A stretch of DNA of 64,000 nt from Blastococcus sp. CT_GayMR20 (GTDB lineage: Bacteria > Actinomycetota > Actinomycetes > Mycobacteriales > Geodermatophilaceae): positions 1-64,000 of the forward strand of contig NZ_SPQM01000010.1 in NCBI RefSeq assembly GCF_004570345.1. Direction: 5' to 3'. Shown here piece by piece: positions 19,903 through 38,384 of this stretch (positions within the stretch are counted from its first letter, which is position 1; each line of letters starts with the position of its first letter). The notes under the pieces are model-generated. The model was given only the letters and a program-made list of their open reading frames with translations. It had not been told where the DNA came from and ran no database searches. Position numbers and translations under genes: made by a program.

Positions 19903-19920
19903 ATCGGCAGCACTGCCGAT
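19903..19920. promoter_or_regulatory. Perfect operator palindrome
   Basis: ATCGGCAG-CA-CTGCCGAT is an exact 8-2-8 inverted repeat and the best example of the cluster's operator. It lies 176 bp before the metalloprotease start. Confidence 0.7.
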
Positions 19921-19937
19921 CCACGGGGTGGGGCGGC

Positions 19938-19955
19938 ATGGGCAGAACGACCGAT
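19938..19955 (+). promoter_or_regulatory. Operator palindrome, dnaK-operon side
   Basis: ATGGGCAG-AA-CGACCGAT matches the consensus in 13 of 16 positions. In the orientation facing the dnaK operon it shares the exact string GGCAGAACGACCGATTGC with the site in front of the debranching-enzyme gene. Confidence 0.65.
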
Positions 19956-20195
19956 TGCCGCCGCGGGGGCCGACGGCGAGCGTGGATGAGCACGGTGCGG
20001 TGGGCCGCCACGTGGCCACCGCACAGTCGGCGGGCCTCCGTCGACCTCCAACCGGCGGGAGGAACAGTCCGTGCCTCTGATGCGGCGCTCCTCCTGTCCC
20101 TCCACCGTTGTCACCGGCTCCGTGCCGCGCCCGCGCCCCCCAGGACGCCGCAGCCGCGGCCACCCAGTCGGCCCCGTCTGATCTGGGAGTCACTC

Positions 20196-20732
20196 ATGAC
20201 CTCGCACGACGCGAACCCCACCGGATCGGGAGGGAGCACCGCGGTCCACCCCTGGTCCCCCGGTAGCCCTGACGCCTCCGCCCGGTCGGCCAGACGGACT
20301 GTCGCCTCCTACACCACCTACGCCGACGCCGAGCGAGCGGTCGACCGGCTCGCCGACCGTGACTTCCCCGTCGAGCGGGTCGCCATCATCGGCCAGGACC
20401 TGGAGACCGTCGAACAGGTGACCGGAAAGCTGGACTATCCCACCGTCGCCTGGCGGGGCGCGGTGAGCGGTGCCGTCCCCGGCGCGTTGCTCGGCTGGAT
20501 CTTCGGACTCTTCGACTGGGCCGATCCGATCGTGAGCGCGCTTCTGCTCGCCCTCTACGGACTGCTCATCGGGGCGGTGATCGGAGCCATCATCGGGGTG
20601 ATCGTGTACGCGCTCCAAGGGGGTCGCCGGGACTTCGCGTCGGTGACCGTCATGCGCCCGCGGCGCTACGAGCTGGTCGTCGACGACGAGGTGGCCGACC
20701 AGGCTGCCCGGCTGCTCACAGAGAGGATCTGA
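20196..20732 (+). CDS. YflT-like (general stress protein 17M) membrane protein
   Basis: A 178-residue protein. Residues 36-75 match the heat-induced stress protein YflT/DUF1269-like fold ([34 protein letters not shown]); two glycine-rich membrane helices follow at about 90-110 and 115-140. A short C-terminal domain ends at [17 protein letters not shown] lies six bases before the ATG. It is the first gene of the chaperone operon; only one base separates its stop from the dnaK start. The function of the family is unknown, but its members are general-stress proteins. Confidence 0.82.
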
Positions 20733-20733
20733 G

Positions 20734-22617
20734 ATGGCGCGCGCGGTCGGTATCGACCTCGGGACGACGAACTCGGTCATCGCCGCCTGGGAGGGCGGCG
20801 AGGCCTCGGTCGTCCCGAACGCCGAGGGAGCTCGCACGACGCCGTCGGTGGTGGCGTTCACGGAGAACGGCGAGCGTCTGGTCGGGCAGTTGGCCCGCCG
20901 GCAGGCGATCCTCAACGCCAAGGGCACGATCTACTCGGTCAAGCGGTTCGTCGGCCGCAGGTTCGAGGAGGTCGAGGAGGAGGCCGGTCAGGTCACCTAT
21001 GACGTGGTCCCCGATGCGAACGGGCTCGCGCGCATCAAGGTGCGGGACAAGATGTATGCGCCGGAGGAGATCTCCGCCCTGATCCTGCGCAAGCTCGCCG
21101 ACGACGCCGGCCGGCACCTCGGCGAGCGTGTCACCGAGGCGGTCATCACCGTCCCGGCCTACTTCAACGACGCGCAGCGAACTGCTACCCGCGACGCGGG
21201 GAAGATCGCCGGCCTCGAGGTCCTGCGGATCATCAACGAGCCGACCGCCGCGGCGCTGGCCTACGGCATGGACAAGGGCCAGCACGAGACGGTGCTGGTG
21301 TTCGACCTCGGCGGTGGGACGTTCGACGTCAGCGTCCTCGACGTGGGGGACGGCGTGGTGGAGGTGCGGGCCACGGCGGGCGACACCCACCTGGGCGGGG
21401 ACGACTTCGACCGGCGGATCGTCGACCACCTGGCCGAGGAGTTCCAGAAGGAGAACGGCATCGACCTGCGGAAGGACCCGCAGGCGCTGCAACGGCTCTA
21501 CGAGGCGGCCGAGAAGGCGAAGGTCGAGTTGAGCTCGGTCACGCAGACCCAGGTCAACCTGCCCTTCGTCACCGCGGACGCGAACGGGCCGAAGCACCTC
21601 ACGACGACGCTGATGCGCTCGCAGTTCGAGCACCTCACGGCGGACCTCGTGGAACGGACGATGGGGCCGGTCCGTCAGGCCATGTCCGACGCCAAGGTGG
21701 GGGCGGACGACGTCGACGAGGTCATCCTGGTCGGCGGGTCGACCCGGATCCCGGCAGTGCAGGCGCTCGTGCGCCGGCTCACCGGTGGCAAGGACCCGAA
21801 CATGACGGTCAACCCCGACGAGGTCGTGGCGGTCGGCGCCGCGATCCAGGCGGGGGTGCTCAAGGGCGAGGTCTCCGACGTCCTCCTGCTCGATGTCACG
21901 CCCCTGTCGCTGGGGGTGGAGACCCAGGGCGGGCTGATGACCAAGATCGTCGAACGGAACACCACGATCCCGGTCCGGCGCAGCGAGGTCTTCTCCACGG
22001 CCACGGACAACCAGCCCGCCGTGGACGTCGTCGTGCTGCAGGGGGAGCGGGAACGCGCGGCGGACAACCGGGTCCTGGGTCGGTTCCAGCTCACCGGCAT
22101 CCGGCCGGCGCTCCGCGGTGAGCCGCAGATCGAGGTCGTGTTCGACATCGACGCCAACGGCATCCTCAACGTCACCGCCCGCGACAAGGACACCGGTGCC
22201 GAGCAAGGGATCACGATCTCCGAGAGCACCAACCTGGACACCTCCGAGGTCGAGCGGATGGTCACGGAGGCCGAGCGGAACAGGGCCTCGGACCAGCAGC
22301 TCCGGCAGGAGGTGGACGCGCGCAACCAGCTGGACACCGTGGCCTACCAGGTGCAACGCCGACTCGACGAGCTCGGCGACGCCGCACCCCCGCACGAGCG
22401 GGCCCGGGCCGAGATGCTGGTGACCGAGGCCCGGCAGGCGGTGGCCGACCAGGCGCCGATGGATCGTGTCCGCGAGCTGACCGGCGAGCTGCAGCAGGTG
22501 CTCGCCGGGCTCCAGGCGGCCTCGACCAACTACGCCGCCGACGTCGGTGACGCGGCCGCCGGTGAGCCGGTGGCCGCGGACGACGACGTCATCGACGCCG
22601 AGTTCGACCGGAACTGA
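20734..22617 (+). CDS. dnaK: Hsp70 chaperone DnaK
   Basis: A 627-residue cytoplasmic ATP-dependent folding chaperone. ATPase motifs are [16 protein letters not shown] at residues 6-21, [11 protein letters not shown] near 191 and [14 protein letters not shown] near 335. The linker [16 protein letters not shown] leads into the beta-sandwich substrate domain, and the helical lid ends in [12 protein letters not shown], the usual bacterial acidic tail. Length is normal. It works with the GrpE and DnaJ encoded directly after it and with ClpB three genes on. The company of thioredoxin and reductase genes, and a CbpM-like rather than a canonical HspR gene, suggests a dedicated stress copy; a housekeeping dnaK is likely elsewhere. 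Confidence 0.97.
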
Positions 22618-22627
22618 GCCTCCGGCG

Positions 22628-23221
22628 ATGGCTGAGCCCGGACCGGAGACGCCGACCGCCCGGCCACCCGGTACACCGGATGCAGATCCGGGAGCCGCCG
22701 AGGCACGGGTCCAGCCGGAGGGCGGACCTCCGCAGGAGGCGGCGCCCACCGCGGCGGACGGCGCGGCGGCGGGCGCGACCCAGCGCGCGCTCGTCGCCGC
22801 CGAGGACCGCTGGCGGCGCGCCGCCGCCGACCTGGACAACCTGCGCAAGCGATACGCGCGGGAGGTCGCGCGCGAGCGGGAGAACGAGCGGGAGCTGGTC
22901 ACGTCGGCGTTCCTCCCCGTGCTCGACACCATCGATCGCGCGCTCGAACACGCCGCGGCGGACCCGGGATCGATCGTCGAGGGCATCCGCACCCTCCGTG
23001 AGCAGGCCCTCGCCGTCGTCAGGGGACTCGGCTACGGACGGGAGGACGAGCCCGGAGTGCCCTTCGATCCGGCGCGGCACGAAGTGGTGGGGGTGGTGGA
23101 CGCCGACGGGGCAGGGACTCCGCCCGGTTCGGTGGCCTCCGTCGTGCGGCCCGGCTACGGCGCCCCCGGCCGCCAGTTGCGTCCGGCCGCGGTGACCGTG
23201 GCCCAGCGCGCGGGGAGCTGA
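22628..23221 (+). CDS. grpE: GrpE nucleotide-exchange factor
   Basis: A 197-residue partner of DnaK that releases ADP. The N-terminal 50 residues are Pro/Ala/Glu-rich and disordered. The long dimer helix runs from about 55 to 110 (AAEDRWRRAAADLDNLRKRYAR), with VLDTIDRALEH at its end, and the C-terminal beta domain has EPGVPFDPARHEVVGVV. The frame extends upstream into dnaK; I chose ATG 22,628, ten bases after the dnaK stop, which gives an MAEPG start. The dnaJ gene begins three bases after its stop. Confidence 0.93.
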   Translation: MAEPGPETPTARPPGTPDADPGAAEARVQPEGGPPQEAAPTAADGAAAGATQRALVAAEDRWRRAAADLDNLRKRYAREVARERENERELVTSAFLPVLDTIDRALEHAAADPGSIVEGIRTLREQALAVVRGLGYGREDEPGVPFDPARHEVVGVVDADGAGTPPGSVASVVRPGYGAPGRQLRPAAVTVAQRAGS

Positions 23222-23224
23222 CGG

Positions 23225-24217
23225 ATGGCCCGCGACTACTACGACGTGCTCGGTGTGTCGCGGGACGCCGGCCCCGACGAGTTGCAGCAGGCCTTCCGGC
23301 GGCTGGCGAGGGCGAACCACCCCGACGTGAACAAGGACCCGGGTGCGGAGGAACGCTTCAAGGAGATCAACGAGGCCTACTCGGCCCTGTCCGACCCGGA
23401 GCTCCGCAAGCGCTACGACCGCTTCGGCGAGGACTTCCGGCGGGTTCCCGAGGACTGGGAGCAGCGCGTCGGTGCCGGGGCCGGCGGTGGGGGCCGGCCC
23501 GGTCGGGGTCCCCGCACGACCTGGACCACCGAGGGCGCGGACGTCGGTGGGGGATTCGGTGGCGGGGGCTTCGGTGGCGCGGACTTCGAGGGCATCGACC
23601 TCGAGGACCTCCTGGGCGGCATGTTCGGTGGGCGCGGGCGGCGTGTGGCCCGAACTGCGGGAGCCGATCAGGAGGCCGAGCTCCCGCTCACCGTGGAGGA
23701 GGCGTATCGCGGTGGGCGCAAGGAGGTCACGCTCAACGGCCCGGACGGCCCGCGCAGCTACTCGGTCACGATCCCTCCCGGCGTCAACGACGGGCGGCGG
23801 ATCAGGCTGGCCGGCGAGGGCGGGCGGGGCCTCGGCGACGGCCCGGCCGGAGACCTCTACCTGGTGGTGCGGCTCCTGCCGCACCCGCTCTTCCGCGTGC
23901 AGGGCCGGAACATCCACGTCGACCTGAAGCTCGCCCCCTGGGAGGCGGCGCTCGGCGGGAGCGTCCCGGTCGCCACGCCCGGGGGCGAGACCACGGTGAC
24001 CGTGCCCCCCGGCTCCTCGTCGGGACGACGGCTCAGGCTGCGGGGGCAGGGCATGCCGGATCCGGCCGGGCACCCGGGCGACCTGTTCGCCGAGATCAAG
24101 ATCATGGTCCCGCCACGGCTCAGCGAGCGTGAGCGTGAGCTCTTCTCCGAACTCGCCGCGTCGTCGACGTTCGATCCGCGTCGCGCTCCGACCGACGACA
24201 GGGGAGGACGCCGATGA
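23225..24217 (+). CDS. dnaJ: DnaJ/CbpA-type Hsp40 co-chaperone
   Basis: A 330-residue J-protein. The J domain fills residues 1-70 ([13 protein letters not shown], then NHPDVNKD with the HPD motif that triggers DnaK ATP hydrolysis). A Gly-rich region with [11 protein letters not shown] lies around 95-130. Two C-terminal beta domains follow from about 150. The four CxxCxGxG zinc repeats of type-I DnaJ are absent, so this is a type-II, CbpA-like protein. The gene after it, overlapping by ATGA, encodes a CbpM/MerR-like protein, the usual partner of CbpA. Confidence 0.94.
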
Positions 24218-24590
24218 GCCCGCCGGGTCGTCCAGTTCGCTACCCGCTGGTCCCGAGACCGGCATCCGCCCTGCTGGACCACGAGGAGTTCGCCCGGCGC
24301 TGCGGCGTGCACCCCGAACTCGTGCGGCGGTTCTGGGCGCTCGGCCTCATCCCGGCCGCGCGACGGCCCGACGGGTCGCTGGGGTTCAGCCCGGCGCAGG
24401 TACCGGCCGTCGCGCGGTTCCAGCGGCTGCACGCCACCCTGCCGCTCAACTACGCCGCCCTCGGACTCGTGTGCGACCTCCTCGACCGGATCACCGATCT
24501 CGAGACCGCCCTGCGCGTTCGCGGGCGCACCGAACCCGTACGCCGACGCAGTCCCCAGGAGCCCGCCAACCAACCCGAGCGGAGTCAGCG

Positions 24591-24600
<10 letters not shown>
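24214..24600 (+). CDS. CbpM/MerR-like chaperone modulator
   Basis: A 128-residue protein with a MerR-type winged-helix N terminus ([21 protein letters not shown] at about 26-46) and a helical second part ([22 protein letters not shown]), then a basic tail. It resembles CbpM, which binds and restrains CbpA-type DnaJ, and more distantly HspR. Compared with HspR the DNA-binding half is less canonical and no HAIR site is seen upstream, so modulation of DnaJ is as likely as repression. The start overlaps dnaJ by four bases, and its 3' end overlaps the clpB start by ten. Confidence 0.82.
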
Positions 24601-27211
<2,611 letters not shown>

Positions 27212-27215
<4 letters not shown>

Positions 27216-27670
27216 GCGCTCCCGCGACCGCGCGGACGAGCATCGTCACCTGCTCGCACTGCTCGAAGAAGAACCGGGTGCCGGCCGCGGCAGACGGCAT
27301 CCCGAAGTGCGGCAACTGCCACCAGCCCCTGCCCTGGATCGTCGACGCGGGTGACGACGACTTCGTCGAGGTCGCGGAGCGGGCCCCGGTCCCGGTGCTC
27401 GTGGATCTCTGGGCGACGTGGTGCGGGCCGTGCCGGATGGTCAGCCCGGCCCTGGAACGCATCGCCACCGACCGGGCCGGCGAGCTCAAGCTGGTCAAGG
27501 TCGACGTCGACGCCGCACCCCGGCTGTCCCAGCGGTTCGAGGTGCGCGCGGTGCCGACCCTGATGGTGCTGCGGGACGGCGAGGTGCTGGCCCGTCAGCC
27601 CGGCGCGGCCCCCGAGCCCGCGCTGCGCAGCTGGCTGGACGGCGCCCTGTCCGGAGGGGCTGCCCGATGA
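27212..27670 (+). CDS. Zinc-ribbon thioredoxin (Trx2/TrxC type)
   Basis: A 152-residue disulfide reductase. An N-terminal zinc ribbon (Cys14, Cys17, Cys33, Cys36) precedes a thioredoxin domain whose active site is WCGPC with Cys71 and Cys74. The family signature [28 protein letters not shown] follows, with the cis-proline in AVPT. This matches thioredoxin 2, which is tied to oxidative and heat stress. It is coupled to clpB and to the UBP-type protein by four-base overlaps. Its electron donor may be the reductase-like flavoprotein two genes on, but see the missing CxxC there. Confidence 0.93.
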
Positions 27671-27939
27671 CCATCCCGGTCGGCGTCGACCCGCACCTCG
27701 CCTTCGTTCGTGAGGACGTCGTCCCGCGCACCCCGCAGGGCTGCGAGGAGTGCCTTCGAATCGGTTCCCCGTGGGTGCACCTGCGGCTCTGCCTGACCTG
27801 CGGGCACGTCGGCTGTTGCGACCAGTCCCCGGGCAGGCACGCTCGGAGGCATGCCGGTCTGGTCGGCCACCCGGTCGTCCAGTCGTTCCAGCCGGGCGAG
27901 GACTGGCGGTGGTGCTTCGTCGACGAGGCATACGTGTGA
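27667..27939 (+). CDS. UBP-type zinc-finger protein
   Basis: A 90-residue protein that is essentially one ubiquitin-hydrolase-type zinc finger. Candidate ligands are Cys26, Cys29, Cys42, Cys45, His47 and Cys50/Cys51, plus the late histidines in RHARRHAGLVGHPV. In eukaryotes this fold binds the free C terminus of ubiquitin. Bacterial stand-alone versions are common in actinobacteria beside thioredoxin-reductase-like genes, but I know of no established role. Starts and stops overlap both neighbours, so it is co-translated with the thioredoxin and the flavoprotein. Confidence 0.88.
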   Translation: MTIPVGVDPHLAFVREDVVPRTPQGCEECLRIGSPWVHLRLCLTCGHVGCCDQSPGRHARRHAGLVGHPVVQSFQPGEDWRWCFVDEAYV

Positions 27940-29648
27940 TGACCCGGTCCGTGGAGGAGGACCAGGGGCTGGAGGGCCTGCTGGCGGACCTGCCGCCGGG
28001 GGAGACCCCGGACCTGACCGGCGCGTTTCCCCGGCTGGAGGACTCGCAACTCCAGATGCTGCAGGCATGGGGGGAGCGACGACACGTCCCGCACGGCGAG
28101 GTGCTGATCGCGGAGGGCGAGCCGGAGGACACCTTCTACGTGCTGTTCTCCGGGCGGGTCGCCGTGGCGGAAGCGGTGGGGACGCCGGACCAGCGCGTCG
28201 TCCGCGTGCACGGGCCCGGCCGATTCCTCGGTGACCTGGGCATGCTCACCGGGCAGCCCGCCTACGCAACCACCATCGTTGCCGACCCGGGGGAGGTGCT
28301 GGCGATCCCCGCCGAGCGGCTGCGCGCCGGGGCGGCCGCGTCCCCGGCCTTCGGCGACCTGCTGCTGCGCGCCCTCCTGCTCCGGCGCTGGCTGGCGCTG
28401 GGGGAGGGGATGGGCTTCCGGATCATCGGCTCCCGGTTCTCCGCCGAGAGCCGGCAGCTGCGCGAGTTCGCCGCACGCAATCGGCTGCCGCACAAGTTCG
28501 TCGACCTGGAGACCGATCCGTCGGCCGAGCGGCTGCTCCGCGGCCTCGGACTGGCGCCCGACGACACGCCCGTGGTGCTGTTCCGACGGCAGGTACTGCG
28601 CAATCCGTCCCCGGCGGACCTGGCCGCGGCGTTCGGCCTGCGCGAGGTGGACCCCGCGGAGAAGGTCGTCGACCTGGTGGTCGTGGGCGCCGGACCGGCG
28701 GGCCTCGCGGCCGCGGTCTACGGCGCCTCGGAGGGCCTCGACACCGCTGTTCTCGACGGCGTCGCGCCGGGAGGGCAGGCGGCGCGGACGTCGTGCATCG
28801 AGAACTACCTCGGCTTCCCCTCCGGGATCTCCGGGGGCGAGCTGGCCGATCGCGCCGTGCTGCAGGTGGAGAAGTTCGGGGCGCGGCGGTCCGTCCCGGC
28901 GGAGGTGGTGGGGATGGAGGAGCGCGACGGGAACCACGTGCTCCGGTTCGCCGACGGCGGCGAGCTGGCCACCCGGACGGTGATCGTCGCGTCCGGCGTG
29001 CGGGTCCGCCGGCTCCCGGTCCCCGGACTGGAGCAGTTCGAGGACACGTGCGTGTACTACGCGGCCACGCCCATCGAGGCCCAGCAGTGCGCCGGCGACC
29101 CGGTGGTGGTCGTCGGTGGGGGCAACTCGGGCGGCCAGGCCGCGGTCTTCCTCACCGACCACGCCTCCCAGGTCCGCCTGGTGGTCAGAGAGGACAGGCT
29201 CGACGAGAACATGTCGCGCTACCTCGCGGACCGGATCACGCAGGACCCGCGCGTGGAGGTGCACCTCCACACCGAGGTGGAGGCCGCGGAGGGCGAGGGT
29301 GGCCGCCTCGAGGCCGTCGTCGTGAAGGACACGGTGACCGGGAAGCGGCAGCGCCTGCCCGCGCGCGACCTCATGGTGTTCATCGGGGGCGAGCCCAGCA
29401 CGTCGTGGTTGCCGGACTCGGTCGCTCTGGACCCCGGTGGCTACGTGCTGACCGGGCCGCAGGCGCGCCGGGCGACGGAGCGAGGGGAGTCCGACGGACC
29501 CGACCCGCTGCTGCTCGAGACCAGCCTGCCCGGCGTCTTCGCAGCCGGCGACGTGCGCAGCGGCTCGGTGAAGCGGGTCGCCTCGGCGGCGGGGGAGGGC
29601 GCGATGGCGGTGCGCCTGGTGCACGAGCACCTGGCGACGACGCGGTGA
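27939..29648 (+). CDS. cNMP-domain thioredoxin-reductase-like flavoprotein
   Basis: A 569-residue fusion. Residues 25-150 are a cyclic-nucleotide-binding (CAP-type) domain (GEVLIAEGEPEDTFYVLFSG). Residues about 155-235 are a small thioredoxin-like linker domain without a CxxC. From residue 245 a thioredoxin-reductase-type FAD/NAD(P) module follows: VVGAGPAGLAAAVYGASEG near 250, VVVVGGGNSGGQAAVF near 390 and the late FAD motif GVFAAGDVRSGSVKRVASA. Where classical reductases carry CATC, this reads YYAATP, with single cysteines at about 371 and 384, so normal disulfide transfer looks impossible. The start overlaps the zinc-finger stop; the in-frame upstream extension is antisense-like. Confidence 0.9.
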   Translation: MTRSVEEDQGLEGLLADLPPGETPDLTGAFPRLEDSQLQMLQAWGERRHVPHGEVLIAEGEPEDTFYVLFSGRVAVAEAVGTPDQRVVRVHGPGRFLGDLGMLTGQPAYATTIVADPGEVLAIPAERLRAGAAASPAFGDLLLRALLLRRWLALGEGMGFRIIGSRFSAESRQLREFAARNRLPHKFVDLETDPSAERLLRGLGLAPDDTPVVLFRRQVLRNPSPADLAAAFGLREVDPAEKVVDLVVVGAGPAGLAAAVYGASEGLDTAVLDGVAPGGQAARTSCIENYLGFPSGISGGELADRAVLQVEKFGARRSVPAEVVGMEERDGNHVLRFADGGELATRTVIVASGVRVRRLPVPGLEQFEDTCVYYAATPIEAQQCAGDPVVVVGGGNSGGQAAVFLTDHASQVRLVVREDRLDENMSRYLADRITQDPRVEVHLHTEVEAAEGEGGRLEAVVVKDTVTGKRQRLPARDLMVFIGGEPSTSWLPDSVALDPGGYVLTGPQARRATERGESDGPDPLLLETSLPGVFAAGDVRSGSVKRVASAAGEGAMAVRLVHEHLATTR

Positions 29649-29758: not shown

Positions 29759-30862
29759 GTGGCAGAGGTCCGGGTGGGGGTGGTCAACGCCCCCGCGATC
29801 TCCGACGAGCTGACCACCGGGCTCGTCGACGACATCCGAGGGGAGCTCGAAGCGCGCTTCCCGGAGGTGAGGTGGGCATTCCAGCTCCTCGACGACGGCC
29901 TGGTCGAGCCGCCGGCGGACGACAGCGAGATCGTCGGCGCAGCGCGGCAGCTCCTCCTGACGCGCGCGTGGGATCTCGTCGTCGTCCTGACCGACTTGCC
30001 CCTGATGGTGGTGAGACGACCGGTGGTGGCCCACGCGAGCCCCATGCACGGGGTCGCGGTGCTGTCGGTGCCCGCGCTCGGAACCCTCGCCGTGCGACGG
30101 CGTCTCCGGAACGCCGTACTGCGCCTGATCGGCGCACTCCTCGGCGAGGCCGAGGACGACGGGCTCGGTGAGGCCAGGGGCTGCAGCGCCGACGATCGCA
30201 CGGACGCTGCGGGGAGGCGGCGGATCGACTCCCGGCTGCGCGAGCTGGGTTCCGTCGTCGAGGGGCAGGCGCCGTCCCTCCGGTTCACGACTCGTGTGTT
30301 CACCGGCCACCTCCGGCTGCTGTTCGGCATGGTGCGGGCCAATCGTCCGTGGCAGCTGGCCGCTCGCTTGTCCCGGGCGCTGGCTGCGGCCGCTGCTGCG
30401 GGTGTCTTCGCGCTCGTCACTCCGGACATCTGGACCCTGGCCAGTGCCCTCGGGTGGCAGCGGTTGACGGTGGTCAGCGTGGGCTCGGTCGTCGCGATCG
30501 GGCTGACCCTGATCGTCGGCGCGCGGCTGTGGGAGCGCGTTGCGAACCCGCGCACCAGGCAGCAGGTCGTGCTGTTCAACATCGCGACCACGGCGACGGT
30601 CGTGATCGGGGTGGCCGCCTTCTACGTCGCGCTCTTCGTGCTGAGCCTGCTCGCCGGCCTGCTGCTGATCGTCCCGTCCCTCCTCGCTGATGCGATCAGC
30701 CATCCGGTGACGTTCCGGGACTACGTCGAGGTCGCCTGGTTGACGTCCTCGCTGGCCACGGTCGGCGGTGCCCTCGGTGCGGGTCTCGAGTCGGACGAGG
30801 CGGTTCGTCGCGCTGCTTACACCTATCGCACGAGTCGCGCCACCGAACGCGGTGACGGCTGA
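29759..30862 (+). CDS. Membrane protein of unknown function, possibly N-truncated
   Basis: A 367-residue protein I do not recognise beyond similarity to actinobacterial hypothetical membrane proteins. Residues 1-125 look soluble and Rossmann-like (VRVGVVNAPAISDELTTGL, then WDLVVVLTDLPL); residues 165-200 are helical and basic. About four membrane helices lie at 203-222, 234-256, 280-310 and 325-345. The GTG at 29,759 has no clear ribosome site, and the same frame continues upstream through a single TAG to the coupled GTG at 29,645. The natural protein may thus be about 405 residues. Its place at the end of the chaperone/redox operon suggests an envelope-stress role. Confidence 0.65.
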   Translation: MAEVRVGVVNAPAISDELTTGLVDDIRGELEARFPEVRWAFQLLDDGLVEPPADDSEIVGAARQLLLTRAWDLVVVLTDLPLMVVRRPVVAHASPMHGVAVLSVPALGTLAVRRRLRNAVLRLIGALLGEAEDDGLGEARGCSADDRTDAAGRRRIDSRLRELGSVVEGQAPSLRFTTRVFTGHLRLLFGMVRANRPWQLAARLSRALAAAAAAGVFALVTPDIWTLASALGWQRLTVVSVGSVVAIGLTLIVGARLWERVANPRTRQQVVLFNIATTATVVIGVAAFYVALFVLSLLAGLLLIVPSLLADAISHPVTFRDYVEVAWLTSSLATVGGALGAGLESDEAVRRAAYTYRTSRATERGDG

Positions 30863-30885: not shown

Positions 30886-30900
30886 CCCCGCTCTGCGGGG
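30886..30900. terminator. Hairpin between convergent genes
   Basis: CCCCGC-TCT-GCGGGG forms a tight six-bp GC stem with a three-base loop, just inside the 67-bp gap where the chaperone operon meets the convergent DUF2254 gene. A second dyad (GCAGGCGCCTGC) lies a few bases before it. Confidence 0.55.
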
Positions 30901-30929
30901 CAGAAGCCGGCGGAGCGTCGAGGGCCGGC

Positions 30930-32252
30930 TCAGCGCGGCACGGGGACCGACCGTGATGGTGGCGCACGGGTGACGTCGGCGCCCGACCCGATGCCCTCGG
31001 TGTCGGGCGTGAGCGCCGCGAGGACGTCCTCCTCGTCGTCGTAGGCGCGTCGGACGGCGGCGTCCAGGAGCCGCAGCTGGCGGTCCAGCGGTTCCTGTCG
31101 GTCGGCCGGCGCCACGCACTTGAGGTCGGCCAGCGCCGCGCACAGTTTCCGGGACACCTGTGGCTCCGACGCCCCGGCGAGGCGGATCTCGTCGAAGGCC
31201 AGGCGGACGTAGCCGTCCCAGCTGACGGTCCGCTCGATCAGCCGCACCACCCCGTCCTCGTCGCGGTGTTCACCGCAGGGCAGGGGACGAGCGGCGATCT
31301 GGCGCAGCAGGTCGTGCAGCCGGTGCAGCGCCTGGACCGCCGTCGTGGGGTCGTTGAACGGCTGCGCGATCGACCGCACGGCGATGTCGACGAGCTTCCG
31401 GAAGCCGTAGGCGAGATCCTCGGTGTGCACGCGCTCCTCGGCGAGCAGGACGTGGCGGGCGACGTCGGTCATCCGGAGCCGACCGGCCAGGTCCGCGTCC
31501 CCGCCCGCCGTCGACCGGGTGCCCGGAAGCACCCGGAACAGCGGCGCGCCGCCGACGACGAAGTCTCCGACGACGGGGACCAGCTCCAGCACGCAGTCCG
31601 CCCGTCGGGCCGCGGCAACCAGGGCGGGGCGATCGACGCGGATCACGTTGCCGGGTTCTGCGGCGACGATCGCGTCGGGGCCGCCGGTGACGACCGGCAG
31701 ATCTCCGTGTTCCCGGACGATGAACTCGCGGCTGCGGTCGCCGACGAGGTCGATCAGCGCCGCGACCCGGAGGCCGTGGCCGGCATGGTGCACGAACAGG
31801 ATGAGCACGATGATGCTGGCGAGCATGAGGACGTACGAGAGCAGCATCGACAGTCCGGGCACCGTGCCGGTGTCGGAGCCGCGGATCTCGCGCAGGGTCA
31901 GCACCGTGACGAGGAAGGTCGCGCCGAACAGCCCGATCGCCAGCTGGCTCCACCGGTCGGTGAGCAGCGCGCCCACGATGCGGGGCGAGAACTGGCCCAT
32001 CGCCAGCTGGACCGCGACCAGGGTGACCGTCAGGACGAGGGTGGTCAGCGACACCATCGCGGTCGCGAAGGAGGACAGGATGAACTGCGCGTCGGACGGC
32101 GTCCCGGTCAGGCTCTGGGGGATGAGGCGGTAGTCCGTCGCCCGGTCCACGGCGAGCGTTCCGAGGGCCACGAGGGCGCCCGCGGCGAGGCAACCGATGG
32201 GCAGCAGCCACAGGCTGGCGCCGACGAACCGCTGGAGCCGCATCCTGTTCAC
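30930..32252 (-). CDS. DUF2254 membrane protein
   Basis: A 440-residue inner-membrane protein of the DUF2254 family. Four helices fall in the first 165 residues: WLLPIGCLAAGALVALG, then ATAMVSLTTLVLTVTLVAVQ followed by the family hallmark QFSPRIV, then LAIGLFGATFLVTVL, and SYVLMLASIIVLILF. The rest is a soluble domain with VRSIAQPFNDPTTAVQALHRLHDLL, also a family hallmark. The function of the family is unknown. The start is a GTG overlapping the stop of a 38-codon ORF (GTGA). The gene follows the LuxR regulator and an operator palindrome on the same strand. Confidence 0.88.
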   Translation of the reverse strand: MNRMRLQRFVGASLWLLPIGCLAAGALVALGTLAVDRATDYRLIPQSLTGTPSDAQFILSSFATAMVSLTTLVLTVTLVAVQLAMGQFSPRIVGALLTDRWSQLAIGLFGATFLVTVLTLREIRGSDTGTVPGLSMLLSYVLMLASIIVLILFVHHAGHGLRVAALIDLVGDRSREFIVREHGDLPVVTGGPDAIVAAEPGNVIRVDRPALVAAARRADCVLELVPVVGDFVVGGAPLFRVLPGTRSTAGGDADLAGRLRMTDVARHVLLAEERVHTEDLAYGFRKLVDIAVRSIAQPFNDPTTAVQALHRLHDLLRQIAARPLPCGEHRDEDGVVRLIERTVSWDGYVRLAFDEIRLAGASEPQVSRKLCAALADLKCVAPADRQEPLDRQLRLLDAAVRRAYDDEEDVLAALTPDTEGIGSGADVTRAPPSRSVPVPR

Positions 32253-32365
32253 GAACTGGAGGTGCTGATCGCGTCCCCGAGACGGGAGAGCAGTGGGGGC
32301 TCGGCGCGGGGCGGGCTGGAGGCCTGCCACTCCGCCGTCCCGATGAACGACTCGTCCCCGATCAT
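32249..32365 (-). CDS. 38-residue ORF coupled to DUF2254 gene
   Basis: An ATG preceded by GGGGGAGACC opens 38 codons (begins MIGDESFIGTAEWQ, ends DAISTSSS). The TGA overlaps the GTG of the DUF2254 gene. The ribosome site here is much better than any directly before DUF2254, which suggests that translation of the membrane protein depends on reading through this peptide. It may be a leader or a genuine small protein. I know of no homologue. Confidence 0.5.
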   Translation of the reverse strand: MIGDESFIGTAEWQASSPPRAEPPLLSRLGDAISTSSS

Positions 32366-32470
32366 GGTCTCCCCCGGGGTGGACGGACGTGCTCCTGCGG
32401 ACGCACCCGATCCGGCGATCCGTCGGAACGCCAGGTCCCCTCATGAAACCGAAGCCGACGCGGCAGCTCC

Positions 32471-32488
32471 ATCGGCAGAACTCCCCAT
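32471..32488. promoter_or_regulatory. Operator palindrome before DUF2254 unit
   Basis: ATCGGCAG-AA-CTCCCCAT matches the consensus in 14 of 16 positions. It lies 11 bp after the LuxR-gene stop and 105 bp before the 38-codon ORF, so the DUF2254 pair probably has its own regulated promoter. Confidence 0.6.
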
Positions 32489-32498
32489 TTCACGCCTC

Positions 32499-33503
32499 TC
32501 AGGGCGGTGGAGACAGGGGCACGTAGAGACCTTGGCGCTCGGCCCGCACCGCGGCGAGCGTCCTCGTGGGTGCACCGAGCTTGACGAGGATGTGCTCCAG
32601 GTGTGCTGCGACGGTTCGCGGTGCCACGACCAGCGAGTGGGCGATCTGCTGGTTGGAACACCCCTCGATCAGGAACCCGAGCACCTCCAGCTCGCGCGGG
32701 GTCAGCCCCTTGAGGTCGGTCACGCGGGAGAGGACGACCGTCCCGAGGAGGTTTGCCGACGGCTCCTCACCGCTGGCCAGGACGGTCACGCGGACGTGCC
32801 CGTCCGGGGCGTGGCGTCCTCCGCGCGGCCACAGGAACGACGTGAAGATCTGGCCGTCGTCGAGGCGGGAGCAGGCGAGATCCACGAGGGCCGATCCATC
32901 GACGAGGAGTGCGTCGCCGTCGAGGCCGGGCAGTGGTCGCGTGGTCCTGTCGCAGCGCAGTACCGCCCCGGCGGTCGCCCCCCGCACCAGCCGGGCCGCT
33001 GCCGCCAGTGATCGCAGCGGGTCGATCCCGCGTGCCAGAACAGGGGTGAGCTGGTGCAGCCGGCGCCGCATGACCAGGGGCGGTGGCTGGCTGCCGGTGT
33101 AGAACAGCGCGAGGAAGCCGACATGGCGCCGCCCGGCGTCGAACAGGGCGACCCCAAGAGCCTCGTGGATCCCGGCCGGGAGAAGGCACTCGGCCCACGT
33201 CGGCAGGTCTTCGGCCGGGTAGGGCAGGTCGGAGGGGCTCAGCGGAGGGCGGGCGCGGTCGGTCTGGGTCACCTCGATGTCGCGCGCCGTCTCGGGGCCA
33301 CCCAGGTACTGCACGGTGCCTTCGTCGAGGTCGGTGCTGCCCAGGGAGGTGTAGCTGCCGCGCATCGGATCGGCGAGGGCCAGCCACGCGGCATCGAAGG
33401 GGACGACGCGGCGAAGCCTGTCCAGCATCCCCTCCGCGCGTTCGGAGAGGGGACGGGTCGAATCGGCGACCTCGGCCAGTCCAGGGCTTGCCGTCATCTC
33501 CAT
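32499..33503 (-). CDS. LuxR-type transcriptional regulator
   Basis: A 334-residue regulator. Residues about 20-230 form a GAF-like sensor region (MLDRLRRVVPFDAAWLALAD, then LGVALFDAGRRHVGFLALFY). Residues 268-325 are a LuxR/NarL helix-turn-helix: LTPRELEVLGFLIEGCSNQQIAHSL and RTVAAHLEHILVKLGAPTR. There is no receiver domain, so it is a one-component sensor. ATG 33,503 follows CGGGAG; nine codons of upstream extension were dropped. Proteins with this domain bind palindromes of about 18 bp. With the 18-bp palindromes in the cluster, this is my first candidate for their regulator; the ligand is unknown. Confidence 0.88.
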   Translation of the reverse strand: MEMTASPGLAEVADSTRPLSERAEGMLDRLRRVVPFDAAWLALADPMRGSYTSLGSTDLDEGTVQYLGGPETARDIEVTQTDRARPPLSPSDLPYPAEDLPTWAECLLPAGIHEALGVALFDAGRRHVGFLALFYTGSQPPPLVMRRRLHQLTPVLARGIDPLRSLAAAARLVRGATAGAVLRCDRTTRPLPGLDGDALLVDGSALVDLACSRLDDGQIFTSFLWPRGGRHAPDGHVRVTVLASGEEPSANLLGTVVLSRVTDLKGLTPRELEVLGFLIEGCSNQQIAHSLVVAPRTVAAHLEHILVKLGAPTRTLAAVRAERQGLYVPLSPPP

Positions 33504-33704
33504 CGGTCTCCCGAGTGGCGGCGCCAGCAAGGCACGCTGTTTCTCTCAACGGCGCCGACGCCGCACTCCTGCTCGTGCATCATTACCGCGAAACGGACGG
33601 TGTAGTCCCCGTCACTGTGCAGAAAAAGTGGCCGTGGTCTGAGGATCTGGCTAACGACGCCACGGGTGCGGGTGCGGGTGGGCGGTGGAGCAGTAACGTG
33701 CTGC

Positions 33705-34658
33705 GTGGAGTTTCGCCAGCTCAGGTACTTCCTGGCGGTGGCCGAGGAAGGGCGCTTCAGCCGTGCAGCGCGCCGGCTGCACATCGCCGCGCCGTCCCTC
33801 TCCCAGCAGATCAAGGCCCTGGAACGAGAACTGCGGGAGCCGCTCTTCGAGCGCCGGCCGCAGCGCGTGGAGCTCACCGCGGCCGGGCAGGCACTCGTCG
33901 AGCGGGCCAGGGTGATCATCGCCGAGGTGGAGCGGGCACGTGCGGACGTACAGGCCGCCGGCACGGGTCGGGAGCGACTCACCCTCCGGGTCGCGAACAT
34001 GGCCGACCTGGTCCTGGGCGCTCCGTTGAGGGGGCTGGCCCAGGGCATCGACGGGGTCGAGGTCTCCGTGAGCTCCAGCCGGGGGGACGACGCGCTGGAG
34101 GCCGTCCGTCAGGCCCGCGCCGACGCTGCTGTCGTCTGGAGCCGTCAACCGATCGACCGCGACCTCGACGGTGTCGTCCTCGGCTCGGTGCTCTTCGGCG
34201 TGGTCGTCCCGATGGGCCACCGGGCGGCCGACTCGGCGAGGGTGCCGGTCGCTGAGCTCGCCGGCGAGATCCTGGTCATGTTCCCGCGCGGACCGTTCGC
34301 CGGCGTCTGGGATCGCACGGTGGACCACTTCTTCCCCGGTGGTGCAGGGCCGGGGCAGGTGGTCGTCGAACCGAACCTGCTCAACAGTCCCGAGGCGGTG
34401 CTGCGCGCGGTCGCAGCCGGCGTCGGGATCGCCGCCGGCATCCTGGATGGCGCCGACCGTGCGCGGACCGGCGAGGTCGAGATCCGGCGTCTCGAGCCGG
34501 ACCTGCGGCTCGACCTGGAGGCCGTCTGGCGGGCGCCGGCCGGGCGGTCGGTCCGCAGGCTCGTCGACTTCCTGGTGCGATCGGCGCAGAACCCCGGTAC
34601 CGCCATCGAGGCAGCCGAGCACCCGGTCGGGGGCACCGGGACGTCGCTCAGGGTGTGA
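33705..34658 (+). CDS. LysR-family transcriptional regulator
   Basis: A 317-residue regulator. The winged helix-turn-helix fills residues 1-60 (FRQLRYFLAVAEEGRFSRAA, then PSLSQQIKALEREL), followed by a substrate-binding-like effector domain to about 295. The GTG at 33,705 gives the standard LysR N terminus, VEFRQLRYF, with GGTGGAG upstream; the extension to 33,666 was rejected. It is divergent from the LuxR gene across 201 bp. Its 3' end overlaps, on the other strand, a decayed alcohol dehydrogenase, perhaps its former target. Confidence 0.9.
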   Translation: MEFRQLRYFLAVAEEGRFSRAARRLHIAAPSLSQQIKALERELREPLFERRPQRVELTAAGQALVERARVIIAEVERARADVQAAGTGRERLTLRVANMADLVLGAPLRGLAQGIDGVEVSVSSSRGDDALEAVRQARADAAVVWSRQPIDRDLDGVVLGSVLFGVVVPMGHRAADSARVPVAELAGEILVMFPRGPFAGVWDRTVDHFFPGGAGPGQVVVEPNLLNSPEAVLRAVAAGVGIAAGILDGADRARTGEVEIRRLEPDLRLDLEAVWRAPAGRSVRRLVDFLVRSAQNPGTAIEAAEHPVGGTGTSLRV

Positions 34659-34807
34659 GGACCACCTTCTCCCAGCGCTCCTCCTTGTTCTTGAAGTGTC
34701 GTGCCGGTACGGGGTCTCCCGAGAGGCAGGCGGTCGGTGATCACCCGGGTCGGGTCGATCTCGCCGCTGCGGCAGGACAGGATCGCCTGGCGCAGGACGC
34801 GCGGCCG
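34648..34807 (-). pseudogene. Zinc alcohol/formaldehyde dehydrogenase remnant
   Basis: On the minus strand the last 50 or so codons of a zinc-dependent alcohol or formaldehyde dehydrogenase are visible, split over three frames: RSGEIDPTRVITDRLPLG, then ETPYRH, then HFKNKEERWEKVVLTP and a TGA. Intact relatives end xGxIDPTRVITHRLPLxEAPEAYRxFxxKxDGxxKVVLxP in one frame. At least two frameshifts are therefore present, and no upstream catalytic part remains. It shows that gene loss occurred between the LysR gene and the debranching enzyme. Confidence 0.65.
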
Positions 34808-34991
34808 GTCGATTCGGAGCGGACCGCTGACGGCGGCCCGGGCCCCGGCCGTCGTGGTCGCGGCAGACGCTGTCGAGGCATCAGATCCCCGGCCTGCGGC
34901 CTGCGCCATCGGCAGAACGACCGATTGCCCGTATCCGGTGTCGGAACGAACGTGGGGCGGTCTGGCCCAGGGACGACCGAGGATGGTGACC
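34659..34991. other. Intergenic region before debranching enzyme
   Basis: These 333 bases contain most of the dehydrogenase remnant and, near the debranching gene, an operator palindrome. I see no other gene. Confidence 0.5.
34908..34925 (+). promoter_or_regulatory. Operator palindrome before debranching gene
   Basis: ATCGGCAG-AA-CGACCGAT matches the consensus in 14 of 16 positions and lies 66 bp before the ATG at 34,992. Confidence 0.65.
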
Positions 34992-37163
34992 ATGGGCGCC
35001 CCTCTGGCGGAGAAGTGGAATCCGGAGAACGAGCCGGCCATCGTCGGCGCGGGCGCCGTGACCCTGGTCGAGGGCTCGTCCTTCTGCATCTGCACGCCCG
35101 CCGGGGACCTCGGCAGCGCGGGCCCGAACGGCCTCTTCTTCCGTGACACCCGGATCCTGTCCCGCTGGGACCTGCGGATCGACGGCGAACAGCCCGACCC
35201 GCTGACGGCGATGGTCCCCGACCCGTACCGGGGCACCTTCCTCGGCCGGCTGTCCCGCCGGTTCGGCCGCACCGACACCAACCTGCTGGTGCAGCGGGAG
35301 AGGCGGGTCGGCAACGGGCTCCGGGAGGACCTGGTGCTGCGCAACCCGGGTGCCGAGCCGACGACGTGCACGGTCACGATTGCCGTCGAGGCGGACTTCG
35401 CGGACCTGTTCGAGGTCAAGGAGGGGCGGGTCCAGCCCCGCGGCGAGCGGCGGGCGCAGTCACAGGACGACCGCCTCTTCCTGGACCTGCACTGGCTCGG
35501 TACTCATCGGGGGGCGGTCGTGGAGGCGCCCGGTGGCGCAGTCGCGGCGGCCGCTGTGCTGGGTTCGGGGGCGGGGAGCATCCGGTACGACGCTCTCGTC
35601 CCCGCGCACGGGCAGTGGTCGACCTCGCTGCTGGTGCGTCCGGTGGTGGAAGGCGAGGTGGTCGAACCCTCCTTCCCGTTGGACCGGCCGGAAGGGGAGG
35701 CCCTGCCTGCCAGGCGGTTGCAGCGATGGCGGGAGACGACCCCCATCGCCACGACCGGGGACGACAGCCTGCAGCGGACGCTCCAGCGCAGCCAGCAGGA
35801 CGTCGGGGCGCTGCGCATCTTCGACCCCGAGGACCCCACGCTCGCCGCAGTCGCGGCGGGCGCCCCCTGGTTCATGGCGCTGTTCGGCCGGGACTCCCTG
35901 TTGACCGCCTACATGGTGCTGCCCGTCGACCGGAGCCTGGCCCTCGGCACGTTGCGGACGCTCGCGCGACACCAGGGCCGCACCACTGACCCGGTGACCG
36001 AGGAGGAGCCGGGCCGGATCCTGCACGAGGTACGACTAGGGGTGGACTCGGGCCTGTCCCTCGGCGGCGGCAGCATCTACTACGGGACGGTGGACGCCAC
36101 CCCGCTGTTCGTGGTGCTGCTGGGGGAGTTCGCCCGATGGGGGGCCGAGCGGGGCTTGGTGGAGGAGTTGCTGCCACACGCCGACCGCGCTCTGGCGTGG
36201 ATCGATCGCTACGGCGATCGCGACGGGGACGGGTTCGTCGAATACCGCCGTGCGACCGACCGCGGGCTGCAGAACCAGGGCTGGAAGGACTCGTGGGACG
36301 GGATCACGTACGCCGACGGCCGCCCGGCCGAGGCGCCGATCGCCCTCTGCGAGGTGCAGGGATACGCCTACCACGCCTTCCACGCCCGCGCCGAGCTGGC
36401 CCGTTGGCTGGACGACGACGCGGGGGCGCAGCGCTGGTCCGAGCGGGCGTCTGCACTCAAGGCGGCGTTCAACGAGCGGTTCTGGCTGCCGGAGCGGGGG
36501 TGGTACGCCCTGGCTCTGGACCGGGACAAGAACCCGGTCGACGCCTGCGCGTCCAACATGGGTCACTGTCTCTGGAGCGGCATCGTCGACTCCGACAAGG
36601 CGGCCCTGGTGGCGGAGCACCTGGTCTCGCCAGCGATGTTCACCGGCTGGGGCGTGCGCACCCTCAGCAGTGACATGGGCGCCTACGACCCGGTCAGCTA
36701 CCACAACGGCTCGGTCTGGCCGCATGACAACGCATTCGTCGTCGCAGGGCTCATGCGCTACGGCTTCGTGGAACCGGCGCAGCGCATCGCGGAGGCACTC
36801 CTGGAGGCGGCGGAGCACTTCGGGGGCCGGCTGCCCGAACTCTTCTGCGGATTCGACCGTGCGGAGTTCCCGGAGCCGGTGCCCTATCCGACCTCGTGCT
36901 CACCGCAGGCGTGGGCCTCGGCGACCCCGGTCCAGCTCGTCCGGACGCTGCTCCGGTTCCACCCGGACCTTCCCCGGGAGCGACTGTGGGTCGACCCCGT
37001 ACTGCCCCCGGCCTTCGCTCCGCTCCGGGTCGAGGGGGTTGCCCTGGGGGGCGGCCGGGTGAGCGTGGAGGTGACCGACGAGCAGACGCTGGTCGAGGGG
37101 CTGCCATCAGGCATCGAGCTGCGCCGCGAGCCCTGCCCGCTGGAGTACCCCTTCCCTGCGTGA
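34992..37163 (+). CDS. Glycogen-debranching-type amylo-alpha-1,6-glucosidase
   Basis: A 723-residue enzyme. Residues about 20-215 are the N-terminal debranching beta domain (FFRDTRILSRWDLRIDGEQP). The (alpha/alpha)6 barrel spans about 260-660 with FMALFGRDSLLTAYM, then DGFVEYRRATDRGLQNQGWKD and NGSVWPHDNAFVVAGLMRYG, which hold the family's catalytic acids. It should trim alpha-1,6 or related glucosidic branches in the cytoplasm. I chose ATG 34,992 because CGAGGA is well spaced there; ATG 34,983 is the alternative. Its last 57 bases overlap the convergent glycosyltransferase gene. An operator palindrome in front places it in the stress regulon. Confidence 0.88.
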   Translation: MGAPLAEKWNPENEPAIVGAGAVTLVEGSSFCICTPAGDLGSAGPNGLFFRDTRILSRWDLRIDGEQPDPLTAMVPDPYRGTFLGRLSRRFGRTDTNLLVQRERRVGNGLREDLVLRNPGAEPTTCTVTIAVEADFADLFEVKEGRVQPRGERRAQSQDDRLFLDLHWLGTHRGAVVEAPGGAVAAAAVLGSGAGSIRYDALVPAHGQWSTSLLVRPVVEGEVVEPSFPLDRPEGEALPARRLQRWRETTPIATTGDDSLQRTLQRSQQDVGALRIFDPEDPTLAAVAAGAPWFMALFGRDSLLTAYMVLPVDRSLALGTLRTLARHQGRTTDPVTEEEPGRILHEVRLGVDSGLSLGGGSIYYGTVDATPLFVVLLGEFARWGAERGLVEELLPHADRALAWIDRYGDRDGDGFVEYRRATDRGLQNQGWKDSWDGITYADGRPAEAPIALCEVQGYAYHAFHARAELARWLDDDAGAQRWSERASALKAAFNERFWLPERGWYALALDRDKNPVDACASNMGHCLWSGIVDSDKAALVAEHLVSPAMFTGWGVRTLSSDMGAYDPVSYHNGSVWPHDNAFVVAGLMRYGFVEPAQRIAEALLEAAEHFGGRLPELFCGFDRAEFPEPVPYPTSCSPQAWASATPVQLVRTLLRFHPDLPRERLWVDPVLPPAFAPLRVEGVALGGGRVSVEVTDEQTLVEGLPSGIELRREPCPLEYPFPA

Positions 37164-38222
37164 GGCCGGGAGATCGACCACCCGCGGGCGTGGCCGTCCG
37201 CGAAGGGAGCCGATGAGATCGGTGTAGAGCTGCACGTGCTGGCGGACCATGCGTTCGGTGGCGAATCGCGATGCGGCCACTGCCCGGCAGGCGGCCCGAT
37301 CGAGGTCCGCGGCGGCCAGGAGTGCGTCAGCGAGGCCGGCCCGTCCCTTCCGCAGGTAACCGGTCACCCCGTCGTCCACGATCTCCGGGGCCGAACCCGC
37401 CGGGGTGGCCACCACCGGCGTTCCCGCCGCCAGCGCCTCGATCATCACCAGGCCGAAGGGCTCCGGCCACTGGATCGGATTGAGCAGGGCGAAGGAACTC
37501 CCGACCAGCTCGAGCTTGTCCTTCTCGCCGAGTTCGCCGACGTACTCGACGTCCGAGCACAGGAGCGGCTTGACCTCGGCGTCGAAGTACTCCCGCTCGG
37601 CGGGCTCCCGGAGCTTCGCAGCCATCCTCAGGGGCACGCCGGCGGCGCGGGCGATCAACGCCGCTTCCCGCGGGCCCTTGTCCGGGTTCATCCGCCCGAG
37701 GAAGGCGGCGAACCCGCCCTGTCCCGTGCCCTCCGGCACGGCTCCGACGTCTATGCCGTGGGGGATCACGGCGGCCACGTTGACGCCGTCGGCGGTCGAG
37801 GCCTGGTGGTGGGAGATCGCGATCACCGGCACGTCAGGCACGGAACGGTAGATCGTCGTGAGCACACGGTCGAAGGGACCGTGGTTGGTGGTCACGAGAG
37901 GGACGCCCACGGGGCGGTGGCGGTACACGGGTCCGCACATCGTGTGGTCGTGCAGGACGTCCACCTCCCGCATGGCCGCGTAGCTGGTGACGACGTGACG
38001 CAGCTCCGTCACCACATCGCCGCTCACCGGTGCCCCGTCGCCGGCTTCATCCGTCCCGGCCACTCGCTCGACCGGACACGTGCTGTTGGCCGCCGCCGCC
38101 AGCAGCACCTCGTGACCGGCACGGACGAGGCCGCGGGCCAGCCGGTCGATCACCGACTCGGTGCCCCCATAGGCCGGGGGCGGTACGGGAATCCACGGAG
38201 GGGCGATGAGGCCGATGCGCAT
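37107..38222 (-). CDS. GT4-family glycosyltransferase
   Basis: A 371-residue GT-B transferase. The acceptor-side N terminus is MRIGLIAPPWIPVPPPAYGG and continues TESVIDRLARGLVRAGHEV. The donor side has FLGRMNPDKGPREA near 200 and the E-x7-E region PEPFGLVMIEALAAGTPVV near 295, typical of UDP- or GDP-sugar transferases. The start at 38,222 is the conserved one; the frame extends further but diverges from the mirror copy there, which confirms this choice. It lies convergent with the debranching enzyme, overlapping by 57 bp, and faces its own mirror copy across the spacer. Confidence 0.9.
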   Translation of the reverse strand: MRIGLIAPPWIPVPPPAYGGTESVIDRLARGLVRAGHEVLLAAAANSTCPVERVAGTDEAGDGAPVSGDVVTELRHVVTSYAAMREVDVLHDHTMCGPVYRHRPVGVPLVTTNHGPFDRVLTTIYRSVPDVPVIAISHHQASTADGVNVAAVIPHGIDVGAVPEGTGQGGFAAFLGRMNPDKGPREAALIARAAGVPLRMAAKLREPAEREYFDAEVKPLLCSDVEYVGELGEKDKLELVGSSFALLNPIQWPEPFGLVMIEALAAGTPVVATPAGSAPEIVDDGVTGYLRKGRAGLADALLAAADLDRAACRAVAASRFATERMVRQHVQLYTDLIGSLRGRPRPRVVDLPASRREGVLQRAGLAAQLDA

Positions 38223-38242
38223 GGGACGTCCAGGGAGAGGGC

Positions 38243-38384
38243 TGCGCATCCCGCCGGGGCTGACAGGAGGGCCCTGAGCCGATCCGACGCCGGCTGCGAA
38301 TCGGTCGCTCTGCCGATGGTTGGCGGCCGATCCGTCGGCTGTCATTGCAGACGGTCCCGTTCTTTCCCGCGACGCCCCTGCGCC
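38243..38384. other. Unpaired spacer of the giant inverted repeat
   Basis: These 142 bases are the only single-copy sequence between the arms. They hold one operator palindrome and no gene. The two glycosyltransferase genes fire outward from here. One mismatch (38,243/38,384) followed by five pairing bases (TGCGC) at the border suggests microhomology at the fold. Confidence 0.8.
38300..38317 (-). promoter_or_regulatory. Operator palindrome between the two glycosyltransferases
   Basis: ATCGGTCG-CT-CTGCCGAT matches the consensus in 14 of 16 positions. Read toward the left glycosyltransferase it is ATCGGCAGAGCGACCGATT, nearly the same as the debranching-gene site. It lies 77 bp from the left start and 87 bp from the right start, so it could serve both. 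Confidence 0.65.

Follow-up and report, generated by a model that had tools for sequence, protein, structure and literature searches.

The window analyzed here is a stretch of 64,000 nucleotides from Blastococcus sp. CT_GayMR20 (contig NZ_SPQM01000010.1, positions 1 to 64,000). It harbors a cluster of stress-related genes, including a zinc metallopeptidase gene, a dnaK operon and genes for a DUF2254 protein, a GAF-containing LuxR-type regulator, a glycogen-debranching-like enzyme (GDE) and a glycosyltransferase (Table 1). The cluster also contains a family of palindromic sites of the form ATCGGCAGNNCTGCCGAT, i.e. ATCGGCAG-NN-CTGCCGAT, which is probably the operator of the LuxR-type regulator and which co-occurs with the luxR gene in other genomes.

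Proposed operator sites and gene cluster of the window

When up to 3 mismatches are allowed, the window contains 11 operator matches, compared with a mean expectation of 0.46 and a maximum of 2 among 100 shuffled sequences. Much of the window forms an exact inverted repeat, with one arm at 12627-38242 and the other at 38385-64000 (every base p pairing with 76627-p), whose symmetry is broken only in a 142-bp centre that is not self-complementary. The right-hand operator matches are mirror copies, so that six of the 11 are independent, one of them (38300) lying in the centre itself. All five sites listed in an earlier, sequence-only reading of this DNA (19,903, 19,938, 32,471, 34,908 and 38,300) were recovered, together with a further site at 17140 that it had missed. 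Its statement that the first 12 kb lack the motif also held, but the single-copy status it gave this flank is not established. The contig of a database protein 100% identical to the window LuxR is 76,626 bp long, equal to the mirror sum of 76,627 minus 1; the whole contig therefore very probably consists of a sequence A, a spacer and the reverse complement of A, with the first ~12 kb probably repeated outside the window. The palindromic contig is likely an assembly or amplification fold-back, or possibly a real inverted duplication.

The motif had been considered distinct from the HAIR, CIRCE and DosR boxes, and a search of the window with their consensus sequences at up to 3 mismatches agrees. 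No match was found in the window for the DosR box TTSGGGACTWWAGTCCCSAA or for the CIRCE box of the HrcA regulon. The HAIR box of the HspR regulon (CTTGAGT-N7-ACTCAAG) has two matches, each with 3 mismatches, against 0.79 expected; the two mirror each other and fall within the thioredoxin reductase gene.

Table 1. Operator sites, promoter elements and genes of the window (class 1, site followed by a -10-like element; class 2, site followed by CGTGG)
Feature	Position	Strand	Basis or remark
Possible sixth site, 5' of an AraC-type gene (judged from its likely start)	17140..17157	.	1 mismatch; no -10 in either orientation
Putative neutral zinc metallopeptidase	18323..19726	-	PF04228; 19726 is the likely start (lipoprotein)
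-10-like element TGCCAT of the Zn-peptidase promoter	19874..19879	-	-10 matrix
Class-1 operator facing the Zn-peptidase gene	19903..19920	-	motif scan, 0 mismatches (16/16); match to -10 matrix (trained on other genomes) at +1, null P 0.0006
Class-2 operator facing the YflT-dnaK operon	19938..19955	+	motif scan, 3 mismatches; class-1 -10 model not fitted
CGTGG element at class-2 distance	19981..19985	+	sequence; cf. class-2 sites in relatives
YflT-domain general stress protein, first gene, directly before dnaK	20196..20732	+	PF11181, E 4e-18
dnaK	20734..22617	+	
grpE	22547..23221		in order after dnaK
dnaJ	23225..24217		in order after dnaK
clpB	ends 27215		in order after dnaK
Thioredoxin	27212..27670		in order after dnaK
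Thioredoxin-reductase-like protein, N-terminal cyclic-nucleotide-binding domain	27750..29648		in order after thioredoxin
DUF2254 membrane protein	30930..32330	-	predicted start GTG 32330, downstream of predicted transcription start
Class-1 operator facing the DUF2254 gene	32471..32488	-	2 mismatches; -10-like TTTCAT at 32443-32448, null P 0.0006
LuxR-type regulator with GAF fold, proposed to bind the operator	32499..33503	-	
Class-2 operator facing the GDE gene	34908..34925	+	2 mismatches; CGTGG at 34951-34955
GDE-like glycoside hydrolase	34992..37163	+	PF14742, PF06202
Glycosyltransferase, left-arm mirror copy	37107..38222	-	upstream sequence breaks at palindrome junction 38242/38243
Non-palindromic 142-bp centre between arms	38243..38384	.	
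Class-1 operator facing the right-hand glycosyltransferase	38300..38317	+	2 mismatches; -10-like TGTCAT at 38340-38345, null P 0.0039
Glycosyltransferase, right-arm copy	38405..39520	+	gene/operator order as in relatives
Mirror copies of operator sites	41702, 44139, 56672, 56707, 59470 (span 41702..59487)	.	not independent

Co-occurrence of the motif with luxR

The association of motif and regulator is clearest in genomes that were not chosen by luxR. Among 198 genomes from the order of genome G007, LuxR (E ≤1e-30) is found in nine, and the perfect motif is present in six of these nine, always within 5 kb of luxR, as against none of the 189 LuxR-negative genomes (Fisher test, 1.1e-9). At up to 1 mismatch, a site occurs in 7/9 LuxR-positive and 16/189 LuxR-negative genomes (Fisher test, 3.6e-6). 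The perfect motif is thus confined to luxR-bearing genomes in this set, and its frequency is above chance. In the family of G001, LuxR (E ≤1e-40) is found in 10 of 57 genomes. The composite pattern TCGG-N5-CTGCCGAT-N22-23-TNNNAT occurs at seven places in six of these 57 genomes, five of them LuxR-positive; in the sixth, G247, a LuxR stretch lies beside the site. Module genes are found in the DNA around all seven places.

A whole-genome scan of 12 LuxR-positive genomes yielded 52 sites at up to 2 mismatches, 25 of which lie inside the 10-kb flanks of luxR and 28 within 14 kb, as do eight of the nine perfect sites; the regulon is therefore mostly local to the luxR cluster. Among the sites taken from these 12 genomes and from the G007 set, eleven have no cluster gene in their 3-kb surroundings, and just one of these eleven has a -10-like element scoring above 4. 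This distant operator (L089:1501-2024, Geodermatophilus ruber) precedes a DUF2267 gene, a candidate regulon member outside the cluster.

Related luxR loci were collected by scanning a 16-member LuxR alignment (A1) against public genomes. This gave 222 relatives, of which 80 loci (41-76% identical; 1.40 Mb) were analyzed and 142 not included; a homologue set (A2) comprised 58 of the best 120 of 1,501 homologues plus 10 loci. The 80 loci come from Geodermatophilaceae, Pseudonocardia, Kineococcus, Cellulomonas, Microbacteriaceae, Nocardioides, Aeromicrobium and others. They contain 135 sites at up to 3 mismatches, compared with nine in reversed sequence, a control that proved too lenient (at up to 1 mismatch, chance matches occur in 16/189 LuxR-negative genomes but the backward pattern in 1/198) and was replaced by the LuxR-negative genomes. 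A perfect site is found in 13/80 loci, and the count rises to 37, 55 and 68 at up to 1, 2 and 3 mismatches, so the motif is conserved near luxR orthologues of many actinobacterial families. When all 7-mer dyads with spacers of 0-12 are counted, ATCGGCA-N4-TGCCGAT ranks first by loci (27 occurrences in 25 loci), and extended frames of this palindrome (TATCGGC N6, GTATCGG N8 and GGTATCG N10) fall within the first 15; the reversed control is uninformative here, as it mirrors dyads. At up to 2 mismatches, 63/91 sites lie between genes and 28/91 inside called genes, but the crude gene calls extend some genes over operators, and we therefore rely on the spacing to the -10 rather than on the intergenic count. 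Many sites keep a constant spacing to a -10-like element directed at a gene, and the sites are not mainly intragenic.

Probable target genes and promoter geometry

The simplest arrangement in relatives is a minimal module (e.g. L030 and, in Kineococcus rubinsiae, L069) in which the operator lies between luxR and an operon for a formaldehyde-dehydrogenase-like (FDH-like) zinc dehydrogenase, a DJ-1/PfpI protein, a second zinc dehydrogenase and a DUF1345 protein. Each target family was judged from one representative. The DJ-1/PfpI protein passes TIGR01382 (DJ-1/PfpI/YhbO deglycase/protease) with 151.3 bits against a cut-off of 139.05, whereas the dehydrogenase falls below TIGR02819 (glutathione-independent formaldehyde dehydrogenase; 318.9 bits, cut-off 636.95) and can be called FDH-like only. 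Several Geodermatophilaceae and Pseudonocardia loci add dnaK, clpB, thioredoxin, LysR, GDE, glycosyltransferase, DUF2254 or SRPBCC genes. This combination of dehydrogenases, a deglycase-type protein, chaperones, thioredoxin, a peptidase and glycan enzymes suggests a response to carbonyl, redox or desiccation stress. The aldehyde-related core operon was not seen in the window. At L009, L016, L058 and L059 the glycosyltransferase gene diverges from the FDH-like gene across a common control region, and the window contig turns at the glycosyltransferase control region; judging from this arrangement, the core operon may sit beyond the fold-back. The protein encoded at 29774-30862 in the window has no Pfam match and, judged by eye only, membrane-like stretches; its family recurs in 15 of 81 gene sets, the window included.

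To describe the promoters, 36 FDH-like target promoters were aligned on the operator, with columns counted from its first base as 0. The operator is followed by 22-23 bp of mostly unconserved sequence and then by a -10-like TGNNAT, with conserved columns T 40, A 44, T 45 and G 46-47; the first four bases after the operator, often ACCG, extend the palindrome. A -10 matrix was built from one site per FDH-like gene (20-135 bp away, up to 3 mismatches), the window never being in training. In the 35 promoters of other genomes used for the matrix, the element lies at offset 0 in 23 and +1 in 12. Among held-out strong-half orientations, 40/84 have a -10-like element at offset 0 or +1, compared with at most three at any other of 72 offsets. 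Of 20,000 random positions, 322 exceed a score of 4 when the highest of five offsets is taken. In the window the matrix matches at 19903 (facing the Zn-peptidase gene), 32471 (DUF2254) and 38300 (right-hand glycosyltransferase), and no class-1 -10 was found by the matrix in the gene-facing direction at 19938, 34908 or 17140. Glycosyltransferase-facing orientations in relatives score above 4 in seven of 14 cases.

Sites oriented by the -10 alone (n = 83) have an exact proximal half, CTGCCGAT, in 66 cases and an exact distal half in 18; the gene-proximal half is therefore the better kept. A transcription start ~7 bp beyond the -10 would place the centre of the operator near -43, overlapping the -35 position at a fixed distance from the -10, which by sequence geometry is the position of a class-II activator. 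Activation of luxR itself through a class-1 -10 was rejected, as the best of 28 luxR-facing orientations scores just 1.9 and none passes 4; the site between the divergent genes therefore serves the effector operon and not luxR. The earlier proposal of a stress regulon accordingly stands in that operators face stress-cluster genes, but is refined to a regulon mainly local to the cluster, with the -10 facing effector genes.

The sites at 19938 and 34908 have a second layout (class 2), in which the proximal half is CGACCGAT, followed by TGC, with CGTGG at columns 43-47. They are the two promoters earlier noted to share GGCAGAACGACCGATTGC exactly, and they share this 18-mer because both have the class-2 layout. 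Among relatives with a proximal CG[AG]CCGAT, CGTGG begins at column 43 or 44 in 7/36 orientations, compared with 147/20,000 random positions (columns 42-44); in GDE-facing sites of relatives it is present in 4/6. Class-2 sites, with the weak half facing the gene and CGTGG near the -10 position, are also found at L004, L009, L021, L034, L051, L058 and L060.

The LuxR-type regulator and known systems

The C-terminus of the window LuxR is a GerE helix-turn-helix (PF00196, E 6e-15, residues 276-329), and residues 1-168 of its predicted structure match GAF domains. Cys104 is highly conserved. Pfam at E ≤0.001 gives GerE alone; the N-terminal receiver domain of two-component response regulators of the NarL/DosR subfamily was not found. 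Sequence matches in the PDB include the DNA-binding domains of VraR, NarL and DosR, and the closest named relatives are from Blastococcus, Modestobacter and Geodermatophilus. A plasmid home is unsupported: among the PLSDB matches listed (10 of 150 records), the best near-full-length one is 31% identical, and a single record in the 60-80% band falls outside those 10. Two LuxR paralogues, one with a strong and one with a weaker match to A1, are found in the same clusters at L001, L073, G220, G230, G254 and G255.

We consider it probable (about 0.76), from sequence evidence, that the motif is the operator of the GAF-LuxR regulator, used as a class-II activator site in a compact, mostly cluster-bound regulon. 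The protein would combine a NarL/LuxR helix-turn-helix with two sensor regions, a GAF fold and a second sensor-like domain, and would bind the 8-2-8 palindrome as a dimer, with a well-kept gene-proximal half and a looser distal half. As the operator overlaps the -35 position and is centred ~43 bp before the predicted start, the bound dimer would activate RNA polymerase at promoters that have a -10-like element alone. The window regulon would then comprise the Zn-peptidase, YflT-dnaK-grpE-dnaJ-clpB-trx, DUF2254, debranching-enzyme and glycosyltransferase units, the core target in relatives being the operon that begins with the FDH-like dehydrogenase. Through its GAF domain the regulator may sense a signal of reactive carbonyl or desiccation/redox stress.

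Since the site overlaps the predicted -35 region, a bound protein could instead block RNA polymerase, making the operator a repressor site released by a signal. This is rather unlikely: the conserved columns of the FDH-like promoters include no TTGACA-like -35 between operator and -10, and a repressor could act without spacing that is exact to 1 bp. Promoters that depend on a class-II activator typically combine a lone -10 with a constant distance to the operator. It is also improbable that another cluster protein, the LysR regulator or the second LuxR paralogue, binds the operator. Several loci do contain two LuxR genes, and LysR is found at several Geodermatophilaceae loci, but perfect sites persist where the analyzed flanks hold one LuxR (L030, L031, L062, L069). 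The LysR family is present in just 13/55 loci with a site at up to 2 mismatches and missing from 42/55, and LysR was rejected as the binder; together with the co-occurrence of motif and luxR, this supports the LuxR protein as candidate binder, as had been proposed. It is very improbable that the motif merely reflects sequence composition or repeats, multiplied by the palindromic contig. Five of the 11 window matches are indeed mirror copies, but six are independent, the motif recurs in unrelated contigs, and the perfect-motif/luxR co-occurrence and the held-out -10 spacing speak strongly against an artefact.

Several observations nevertheless weigh against LuxR-dependent activation at this operator. 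Because the 80 loci were picked by luxR, their internal statistics are no proof of the binding partner, and the three genome sets are the only data unselected by luxR. In the G007 set, 2/9 LuxR-positive genomes have no site at up to 1 mismatch, and in the G001 family the strict composite is missing from 5/10. In the order of G005, whose 200 genomes overlap the G001 family set in part, the composite occurs in 4/16 LuxR-positive and 4/184 LuxR-negative genomes (Fisher test, 0.0016), a weaker association in which the strict pattern misses 12/16. No site at up to 3 mismatches is found at 12/80 luxR loci, and the L080 genome has none near luxR at up to 2. A 6-mer census places ATCGGC N6 third (28 loci), behind dyads in 31 and 29 loci. 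A -10 is absent from 44/84 held-out orientations; the 84 include the luxR-facing sides of perfect palindromes and may also include FDH-like promoters overlooked by the gene caller. CGTGG is absent from 29/36 class-2 orientations, and one 16/16 site (L082) has neither a -10 nor a cluster gene. With two LuxR paralogues in many loci, either might be the one that binds.

More broadly, and as a tentative proposal that we hold to be possible but somewhat doubtful, a GAF-sensing LuxR with its own operator code could run an expandable actinobacterial stress module. Its simplest form would be a single operator separating luxR from an aldehyde-detoxification operon, to which Geodermatophilaceae and Pseudonocardia would have recruited a protein-repair, redox and glycan island, the TGNNAT and CGTGG classes being set by the gene-facing half-site. 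If so, a single activator might serve two kinds of promoter or two sigma factors. An uncharacterized actinobacterial regulator family thereby gains a concrete operator, a target list and a promoter geometry, and stress-island control in Geodermatophilus, Blastococcus, Kineococcus and Microbacteriaceae becomes directly testable. No description of this operator was found in the literature searched, the coverage of which excluded most subscription papers.

The operator is real, conserved, strongly associated with the regulator and of a known kind. NarL, DosR/DevR and VraR share with the window LuxR the GerE/LuxR helix-turn-helix, and their short palindromes with a 2-bp centre (7-2-7 or 8-2-8) resemble the one proposed as its operator. 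In contrast to NarL and DosR, the window protein has an N-terminal GAF fold and no Pfam receiver domain; its recognition helix (RTVA[AT]H[LVI]EH) is unlike theirs, as is the proposed half-site ATCGGCAG. The DosR/DevR dormancy regulon has a LuxR-type activator and palindromic boxes before stress genes, but the window has no DosR box, and the regulon proposed here is mostly one cluster with another effector set. HspR/HAIR and HrcA/CIRCE control a dnaK-grpE-dnaJ-clpB set, whereas the operator before YflT-dnaK is a class-2 site of the present family, in a window with no HAIR box above chance and no CIRCE box. A parallel in geometry is the lux box of Vibrio LuxR, where class-II activation involves a site centred near -42/-43 that overlaps the -35; the sensor in the window protein is of GAF type, and Pfam gave the GerE domain alone, with no acyl-homoserine-lactone domain.

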